DNA from: an uncultured Methanobrevibacter sp.
GTDB taxonomy: Archaea; Methanobacteriota; Methanobacteria; Methanobacteriales; Methanobacteriaceae
Assembly: GCA_902796575.1 (NCBI GenBank)
Contig: CADBPS010000014.1
Span: 1-34,572 of the forward strand
Direction of reading: 5' to 3'
DNA length: 34,572 nucleotides
The notes beneath the pieces are model-generated. The model was not told the DNA's origin. It saw only the letters and a list, made by a program, of their open reading frames with translations, and made no database searches. A program made the position numbers and the translations under genes. Shown here piece by piece: positions 7,302-11,102 of the stretch; the first letter of the stretch is position 1, and each line of letters begins with the position of its first letter.

Positions 7302-8003
7302 TTATAATTTGAATTTATTTAAAATATTGTCATTAATCCCATATGGTTTTTTTGAATAATAGTTTTTTGCATGCTCTACAATCAGTGCATGGTACTCCTG
7401 ATACTCACCAGTGTCTCCCTTAAAATTACTTTCAAATTCCTTTTTAATTTTAGTGTAACTGTCATTTTCACTGATATATCCAAGATATGAAAATATTCTT
7501 CGTGTATATGCATCAACAACAAATTCCTTTTCATTATATGCATACAGTAAGATTGAATCTGCAGTTTCAGGACCTATTCCTTTCACTTCAAGCAGTTTTT
7601 TTCTTCGAGGAGTTTCACTGCCGAGGGTGAGATAAAATTGAGTTATGTTTATCAGATAATCATACTTCTGATTATAGTATCCTGAAGGTTTAATAGCTTC
7701 TTTAATTTCTTCTTCATCTTTTTCAAGGATTTTTCCCGGGTTTAAATCCGCTGTTTTTTGAAGGTTTTCCAGAGACTTTTCAGCCTGGGGCCAGGAAGTG
7801 TTCTGTGTCAGCACTGCACCAAGTATTATTTCGTATTTTTCGTTTTCATTTCTTGGAAATGAGTAATCTCCCGGATGATATCCGTTAACTGATCCTGTTT
7901 TGGTCGGATTATTTCCTTTAAATGTGATGATGGGCCACCATCCCTGATAGGAGTATGTATCAAGCAGTGTTTCGTATATTTCATTAAATGTCATATTTAA
8001 CAT
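7302..8003 (-). CDS. HhH-GPD DNA glycosylase, endonuclease III/MagIII-like, lacking the Fe-S cluster
   Basis: This 233-residue protein belongs to the endonuclease III superfamily. It has the LGAVLTQNTSW block (residues 61-71), a helix-hairpin-helix around LLEVKGIGPETADS (137-150) and the catalytic aspartate D164 in VVDAYTRR. The four C-terminal cysteines of endonuclease III are absent; the whole protein has no cysteine. That combination resembles the 3-methyladenine glycosylase MagIII and its archaeal relatives rather than Nth. Expected role is base excision repair of alkylated or otherwise damaged bases. An alternative start is the ATG at 7994. It heads the operon with hemB. Confidence 0.85.
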   Translation of the reverse strand: MLNMTFNEIYETLLDTYSYQGWWPIITFKGNNPTKTGSVNGYHPGDYSFPRNENEKYEIILGAVLTQNTSWPQAEKSLENLQKTADLNPGKILEKDEEEIKEAIKPSGYYNQKYDYLINITQFYLTLGSETPRRKKLLEVKGIGPETADSILLYAYNEKEFVVDAYTRRIFSYLGYISENDSYTKIKKEFESNFKGDTGEYQEYHALIVEHAKNYYSKKPYGINDNILNKFKL

Positions 8004-9133: not shown

Positions 9134-10021
9134 CTATCTGTATTTTGATGAAAGATTGTGCGTATGCTTTCTTTCAAAATTTGATAATTTTCGAATTGAA
9201 CTGTGGCTGGGATTGTTGACATCCTTGAGAGTGTATATCCTGCTTCTGTCAGGGTTTCTGAAATTTACATTCAATGACATTCCGTCAAAAGCGGCCAGTG
9301 TTTTAACTCCGCTTTCTTTTGAAACTCTTTTGGCTTCATGGATATGATTGTTTGTCATTTTAAGACCCATATGAGTTATTATTGCAAGCTTTGGTTTGAC
9401 TTCTCTTATCAGTTCGATAAATGTGTTTGAACACATATGTCCCTTAATCGATTTGGCTCCCGGACGCAGAACACTTCCTATCAGTATATGTGCACCTTTA
9501 TGGGCTTCAGGCAGTCTTGTAAAATATGAAGTGTCTGAAGTATAGGATATTTTAAACCCTTTGTAATCAATCTGAAAGCCTATCCCCAAAGGATCACCAT
9601 GTCTTGTTGGAGTTGCCTTTATTGTACATGCATCCATTTTTCTGCTTTCATTAACATTGAGAGGCATTATTTTTGACTTGCTCTTGTGGTATTTTGAGAT
9701 GCAGGGACCCCAATGCTTATATCCGTCAATAACACTTTTAGCACCAACTATATATCCCTTGCTTTCAGTCATACCTTTTGTCATTGCTTCAATAAGGATT
9801 TCAGCATCATTATAATGGTCTGTATGGGAATGGGATACGAAAACTCCATTGATGTTTCTCGGGTCAAGTCCGAACTGATATGTGCGCACCAGTGCTCCAG
9901 GACCTGGATCTACATGGTAGTTTTTTCCTCCAAGATTATCCAGCCTGAAACCTCCAGTCATTTTTCTCTGGCTGATAGCTGAGAACCTTCCTCCGCCAGT
10001 TCCTAAAAAGATTATTTTCAT
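9134..10021 (-). CDS. metallo-beta-lactamase fold hydrolase (RNase Z/PhnP-like)
   Basis: The 295-residue protein has the N-terminal IIFLGTGGGR strand-loop of RNase Z and PhnP-type enzymes and the zinc motif HSHTDHYND (H64, H66, D68, H69). Further metal ligands are plausible in PTRHGDPLG, YTSDTSYF and ITHMGLKM. Known relatives are tRNA 3'-processing nucleases, phosphodiesterases and metal-dependent hydrolases. The long RNase Z exosite arm is not apparent, so I do not call it RNase Z. The start lies 9 bp after the Connectase stop, so the two are probably cotranscribed. Cytoplasmic; the substrate is unknown. Confidence 0.85.
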   Translation of the reverse strand: MKIIFLGTGGGRFSAISQRKMTGGFRLDNLGGKNYHVDPGPGALVRTYQFGLDPRNINGVFVSHSHTDHYNDAEILIEAMTKGMTESKGYIVGAKSVIDGYKHWGPCISKYHKSKSKIMPLNVNESRKMDACTIKATPTRHGDPLGIGFQIDYKGFKISYTSDTSYFTRLPEAHKGAHILIGSVLRPGAKSIKGHMCSNTFIELIREVKPKLAIITHMGLKMTNNHIHEAKRVSKESGVKTLAAFDGMSLNVNFRNPDRSRIYTLKDVNNPSHSSIRKLSNFERKHTHNLSSKYR

Positions 10022-10030
10022 TTGAATTCC

Positions 10031-10945
10031 TCATAATGAACACAGGATAATATTACATATCAGGGGAGCACTGTTTTTCTTAAGACATAACACCTCATCT
10101 TTAATTATGACCTTGTCACCTATTTCAACATCTTTTGCTCTGCAAAACATTATGACATTCTGATTAGGTTTGGATAATAGCTTCCAGTTATAGTCAAATG
10201 CCTGTGTTTTATCATTTAACTTAACCTCAATCATTTTTCCGTCAATTGATATTACCTCACCAATTTCGCCTGTTTTAATAATTTTATTACTCAGTTCAAT
10301 TTCTCTGTTTTTTTCAATTATTTCTTTGGCCAATTGCTGTCTGTATTTAGTTAAAACTTTTATATCATTATCAATTGTGATATTAAGATGCATTTGTGCT
10401 TCTGCTTTTGAAAAGTTAGGTTGTTTTATCAAAACATCAAAGTTCTTACCAATCGTTGGTGTTTTATTTGAAATTTCTTCTAAAATTTCCCCAAAAATAT
10501 CTCCCATCAGCTTCAGACTGTAAGATACTTTCCATTTCCTTTTGATTAATAATTCTGCCTGTTTTTTGGCAAAGTTGTTTCCAAACAGTATTATTCCACT
10601 ATCGCCGGCCTGACGGGATGTTGTTTCTGATCCGATTAGTTCAATAATTTGATAGCCATTAGTTGTCCCGTAAATTCTTCTTCTTTTTGTTTCATGTGTT
10701 CCCTTTGTGCTTACTTCTCCTCTAATGGTATTTCCAACTATCCGTATCTTATCGGCATCATCACTTACCTTAATCGGCACATTAAGTTCCTCAGATCTCT
10801 GTTCAAGTTCGGCATTATTCTTAATTTCTCCAGAATATAATTCTTCTTCAAGACTCTGCCTATTTTCTCCAAAATAAGCAATCTTACGCTTATCTCCGGC
10901 CATTACACAGCCTTTTTTACCAACATATGCTATAATTAAGCTCAT
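10031..10945 (-). CDS. DUF2121 protein, Connectase-type proteasome-beta-related protein ligase
   Basis: The N-terminus MSLIIAYVGKKGCVMAGDKR mirrors a proteasome beta subunit: a nucleophile right after Met (Ser2), then a G-x-VMAGDKR strand holding the conserved lysine. Together with the whole-length pattern this fits DUF2121. A member of this family from Methanocaldococcus jannaschii was characterised as Connectase, a sequence-specific protein ligase that recognises a KDPGA-type motif in the methyltransferase subunit MtrA. Residues ~220-304 form a separate beta-barrel-like domain. A strong GAGGAGG site precedes the ATG by 3 bases and fixes the start so that Ser is exposed after Met removal. 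304 residues fits the family. MtrA is not in this window. Confidence 0.85.
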   Translation of the reverse strand: MSLIIAYVGKKGCVMAGDKRKIAYFGENRQSLEEELYSGEIKNNAELEQRSEELNVPIKVSDDADKIRIVGNTIRGEVSTKGTHETKRRRIYGTTNGYQIIELIGSETTSRQAGDSGIILFGNNFAKKQAELLIKRKWKVSYSLKLMGDIFGEILEEISNKTPTIGKNFDVLIKQPNFSKAEAQMHLNITIDNDIKVLTKYRQQLAKEIIEKNREIELSNKIIKTGEIGEVISIDGKMIEVKLNDKTQAFDYNWKLLSKPNQNVIMFCRAKDVEIGDKVIIKDEVLCLKKNSAPLICNIILCSL

Positions 10946-11102
10946 TTTCCTCCTCTCATTTTTACTTTAATCTTAAATTATTTGTGTATTATGTATAATG
11001 TTCATATGTTAAATAATTTTCATATTAATTTCACTTTTAAAAATCCTTTAAAAATTTTTAAATCATATATAAAGGTTTTAAATTAATTATTTAAACAATA
11101 TC

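Follow-up and report, generated by a model that had tools for sequence, protein, structure and literature searches.

The open reading frame on the minus strand at positions 10031–10945 of the window, the whole 34,572-nucleotide stretch of DNA from an uncultured Methanobrevibacter sp. that was analysed here, is a real and ordinary MJ0548-type connectase with a predicted Ser nucleophile and belongs to a known family. The gene very probably encodes a monomeric proteasome-like transpeptidase that detaches and reattaches MtrA heads at a KDPGA linker, its chemistry and monomeric state being predicted by analogy with the published enzymes. The features of the locus are as follows:

10031–10945, minus strand: connectase gene, 304 amino acids, two-domain MJ0548 type (open reading frame, Pfam, PDB, model)
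10940–10945, minus strand: ATG start and Ser2 codon AGC, the predicted nucleophile (DNA read and relatives)
10946–10957, minus strand: Shine-Dalgarno-like GAGAGGAGGAAA ahead of the start (DNA read)
10361–10945, minus strand: N-terminal Ntn-hydrolase (proteasome-beta-like) domain, residues 1–195 (Pfam, model, structure search)
10781–10867, minus strand: two-helix insertion, the connectase signature element (model; hallmark according to PMC8665760)
10040–10348, minus strand: C-terminal beta-rich domain (MJ0548_C), residues 200–302 (Pfam, model)
9134–10021, minus strand: MBL-fold hydrolase, RNase Z-like, 9 bases downstream of the connectase (neighbourhood comparison)

Both connectase family domains were matched above the curated Pfam cut-offs: the N-terminal model PF09894 ('Connectase MJ0548-like, N-terminal') covers residues 1–195 with 223 bits against a cut-off of 26.8 (E 2.7e-66), and the C-terminal model PF25274 covers residues 200–302 (E 2e-28). 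The sequence search of the PDB returned connectases (DUF2121) only, namely 6zvz and 6zw0 of the Methanocaldococcus jannaschii connectase at E of about 1e-38 (6zvz 1.4e-38), and the DUF2121/connectase entries 8wkd and 8jtu at E 7.6e-29. The AlphaFold2 model of the window protein, built from 39 relatives, reached a mean pLDDT of 92.2, and connectases took the first five places among its structural matches in the PDB, with TM up to 0.83 (chain C of 6zvz, E 2e-26). The model shows a proteasome-beta-like fold with helices 29–38 and 44–53 inserted past the third strand, and such a two-helix insertion over the active site has been described as the connectase hallmark (PMC8665760). Proteasome subunits were far behind the connectases in the structure search (E about 5e-4 to 3e-3, TM(query) about 0.3), and no proteasome match was observed in Pfam and no proteasome chain in the PDB sequence search. 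The preliminary description had aligned the N-terminus with proteasome beta subunits and placed the protein in the connectase family; the first likeness holds as a weak match at the fold level and was not recovered at the sequence level, while the family assignment is upheld by the two Pfam domains, the PDB sequence matches, the fold, the insertion and Ser2, the closest homologues in both sequence and structure being connectases rather than proteins outside that clade.

MJ0548 of M. jannaschii (6zvz, 6zw0; PF09894 and PF25274) shares with the window protein the two-domain architecture, the Ser after Met and the two-helix insertion, and its fold matches over the whole length, although just about a third of the residues are identical (32%). 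The Methanosarcina mazei connectase (8jtu, 8wkd), whose target is KDPGA in MtrA, shares the N-terminal domain and the insertion, but its nucleophile is Thr instead of Ser, and its solved chain of 192 residues is without the C-terminal domain that the window protein has. The proteasome beta subunit, HslV and Anbu have the common Ntn-hydrolase fold with an N-terminal nucleophile, but only about 10% identity to the window protein and a weak structural match. Unlike these proteasome-type relatives, connectase is monomeric and works as a ligase (PMC8665760).

The start of the gene was read from the DNA, where GAGAGGAGGAAA stands immediately 5' of ATGAGC on the minus strand, and an M-S start was observed in 112/112 relatives, gathered by an N-terminal pattern permitting S, T, C, A or G; the earlier proposal of an ATG start with Ser2 behind a strong ribosome binding site is thus confirmed. 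The initiator Met is generally removed before Ser by methionine aminopeptidase, which would leave Ser as residue 1, and Ser2 supplies the Thr/Ser found right after the initiator Met in members of the family. In a separate alignment of 39 diverse relatives, S2, D18 and R20 were invariant. Judged from these sequence comparisons, Ser2 and the start of the open reading frame are not accidental. Exceptions to M-S were observed in a tandem pair of connectase genes in genome G061 (L339, contig C40, 915–2882), the first starting with MTLIIAY (M-T) and the second with MVLIIAY (M-V), where Val after Met would abolish the nucleophile.

After the removal of Met, the new N-terminal Ser would attack the Asp-Pro bond of KDPGA, the N-terminal part of the target would be held on the connectase's own N-terminus via a hydrolysis-resistant amide, and the held part would be passed to a polypeptide starting with PGA (acceptor peptide for connectase ligation, PGAFEEEAMVISV). 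The target would be the MtrA linker that ties the corrinoid-carrying head to the membrane anchor, and MtrA heads would be reversibly detached and reattached. The characterised connectases cut the Asp-Pro bond of KDPGA and need about 10 residues after the motif (PMC10154401), and their mechanism is documented in three papers (PMC10154401, PMC11745163, PMC11961121). The purpose is most likely the exchange or repair of MtrA heads, which has less support than the chemistry.

Connectase and MtrA were sampled in the class Methanobacteria plus control genomes, the MtrA sample of the class containing 184 distinct entries. KDPGA was present in 91/91 membrane-anchored MtrA outside Methanosphaera, Methanobrevibacter included (motif peptide ECVEKDPGAFEEEAMVISV), and lies in the linker between the head and the transmembrane helix. 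Conservation of the target motif in connectase-bearing relatives is strongly supported by these alignments; a KDPGA-like MtrA target in other methanogens, as the preliminary description had expected, is therefore found, and the case of no such site in MtrA or elsewhere does not arise among these relatives. The tag after KDPGA differs from that of M. mazei (FEEEAMVISV vs FDADPLVVEI), and this difference between Methanobrevibacter and M. mazei could give an orthogonal ligase pair.

No match to MtrA or MtrE was found in the host genome (86% complete), and no EKDPGA-coding DNA was found in the host assembly, even allowing one mismatch. The missing KDPGA is explained by a contig that ends inside mtrH, rather than by true absence: host contig C91, which is 5295 bases long, follows the 18 kb mtr-mcr region of the relative G004 (L081) up to position 7411 and breaks off there, its end coding for the last 74 residues of MtrH, 97% identical to G004 and in the same gene order. 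The remaining host mtr operon most likely lies in an assembly gap. A second stretch of host DNA (G000:C29, 11525–12466) lies outside the mtr operon, matches mtrH at 71% in DNA and is probably an mtrH paralogue. The named relatives with 75–79% identical connectase are Methanobrevibacter genomes, and in the wide sense of this genus connectase was detected in 37/37 high-quality genomes and mtrA likewise in every one (37/37). The missing MtrA, MtrE and EKDPGA DNA would also fit a host that truly lost Mtr and kept connectase as a leftover, but the mtrH codons at the end of C91, the incompleteness of the genome and the presence of mtrA in every high-quality genome of the genus make this reading barely credible. 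The absence of mtrA sequence from the host assembly could also suggest a connectase by descent only, which in the host has a different target protein or simply works as a protease; this is very unlikely, as the motif is invariant in all connectase-bearing relatives, the connectase described in the literature is no protease (PMC11961121), and the search of the host assembly revealed no EKDPGA-coding DNA elsewhere.

Connectase was detected in 0/20 genomes of Methanosphaera, the sister genus with a lifestyle on methanol plus H2, by searches with the Pfam model and with a profile from the relatives, the latter giving one chance-like match of 39 residues (E 0.017), and the probability that incompleteness caused all 20 absences is about 1e-27 if these are independent. 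There is strong support for Methanosphaera as a natural connectase knock-out that arose by specific gene loss, and the Methanosphaera comparison represents a single evolutionary loss event. The motif Lys was lost in 15/15 Methanosphaera MtrA (12 Asn and 3 Glu; motif peptide ECISNDPGAYDEDAMIVEF), with KDPGA in 0/15 and DPGA kept in 10/15, and this pattern is suggestive of motif decay in the aligned sequences. The Lys loss alone is not decisive, because Lys is one of 12 columns, out of 98 that MtrA conserves in other genera, where 90% or more of the Methanosphaera sequences differ; moreover, the M. mazei connectase recognises the residues ahead of the cut only loosely (PMC11745163), therefore the loss of Lys need not abolish recognition. 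Two genomes with MtrA and without a connectase match, G102 and G132, could have been counter-examples but were discounted, since the neighbouring MBL gene is also missing there and the connectase locus is therefore probably missing from those assemblies.

Across the class, the MBL hydrolase is a conserved neighbour of connectase, located close downstream in 84/96 loci with room, and the order of connectase, MBL hydrolase and then usually aroC was observed in Methanothermus, Methanothermobacter and Methanobrevibacter. Among the Methanosphaera genomes, most have uvrA, MBL and aroC side by side and lack connectase alone, and the MBL gene is kept in 14/14 Methanosphaera genomes searched and is therefore not dependent on connectase. 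A functional pairing of connectase with the MBL hydrolase, considered for the conserved pair, was rejected for this retention in connectase-less Methanosphaera, and the hydrolase is probably functionally separate from connectase. Irregular connectase loci were also observed, including interrupted or partial open frames at L343 (genome G046, contig C53) and L341 (genome G062, with a full connectase copy elsewhere, L340), which may represent either decay or assembly error; second full-length connectases within one assembly at L342 and L031 (genomes G003 and G036), of which the one at L031 looks like those of the M. ruminantium-type genus and possibly stems from a contaminating contig; and a connectase gene under a Treponema title in L126, which is most probably an archaeal contig placed in the wrong bin.

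A second MtrA without the membrane helix (MtrA2) was found in most Methanobrevibacter genomes, M. ruminantium (G111), Methanothermobacter and Methanothermus fervidus, which we take to be genome G079. Among the 74 MtrA2 outside Methanothermobacter, the motif was KDPGA in 62, KDSGA in 8, KDTGA in 2, RDPGA in 1 and QDCGA in 1 (motif peptide ECVEKDPGALEAEPIVMEV). MtrA2 and the anchored head of the same Methanobrevibacter genome share on average 96% protein and 83% DNA identity, several pairs being 100% identical in protein at about 80–89% in DNA, and 3–5 of the ten residues past the motif are common to MtrA2 and anchored MtrA in Methanobrevibacter. Gene conversion behind the identical heads was mostly rejected, given a mean DNA difference of about 17% and the finding that the anchored copy of the same genome is the nearest one for only 7/35 soluble copies. 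No common neighbours of MtrA2 were seen between L082, L347 and L348. In Methanothermobacter, the MtrA2 head is just about 65% identical to the anchored copy, and the motif has decayed (VIKDSGA and VVHDSGA at L242, L243 and L323), with Pro lost, and Lys lost in some.

A narrower form of the preferred explanation is that connectase swaps heads between soluble MtrA2 and anchored MtrA, and replaces damaged or wrongly charged heads while the Mtr complex is not dismantled. This reading is put forward tentatively and is favoured by the mostly kept lysine motif of MtrA2, its S and C variants at the Pro position being tolerated by the M. mazei connectase (PMC11961121); by the near or full identity of the heads in protein at much lower DNA identity; by the MtrA2 tag PGALEAEPIVMEV, similar to the M. 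mazei tag PGAFDADPLVVEI; by the C-terminus of M. fervidus MtrA2, which stops exactly 10 residues past KDPGA, a stretch as long as the known recognition sequence; and by the connectase-less Methanosphaera, where no MtrA2 was found and each genome has one MtrA. However, Methanobacterium-type genera and M. smithii possess connectase without MtrA2 (single MtrA in G104, G105, G160 and G007), therefore a head swap cannot be the universal or only role. The Methanothermobacter MtrA2 without Pro and in some cases without Lys also count against it, as do the two MtrA2 that carry Thr in place of Pro, a change by which ligation is strongly reduced (PMC11961121), and a shared task, the same methyl transfer performed by MtrA2 in solution, may be all that keeps the heads identical. 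A full head-exchange cycle in MtrA2-bearing Methanobacteria, in which free heads would be placed onto Mtr anchors and spent heads would return to the cytosol, and in which Methanosphaera would have lost connectase, MtrA2 and the Lys of the motif all together, is rather doubtful as a joint claim.

The cellular task of connectase, a useful protein ligase, is not settled in the literature surveyed, where the repair of the Mtr complex was suggested as its role by one 2025 paper (PMC12774963). Neither the Methanosphaera loss nor a soluble MtrA substrate was found in the literature searched, the original 2021 PNAS connectase paper being outside that scope, and the clean loss in Methanosphaera together with soluble MtrA as a candidate second substrate is possibly new. 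With Methanosphaera as a knock-out genus and soluble MtrA as a candidate substrate, the physiological role of connectase becomes testable by simple experiments.
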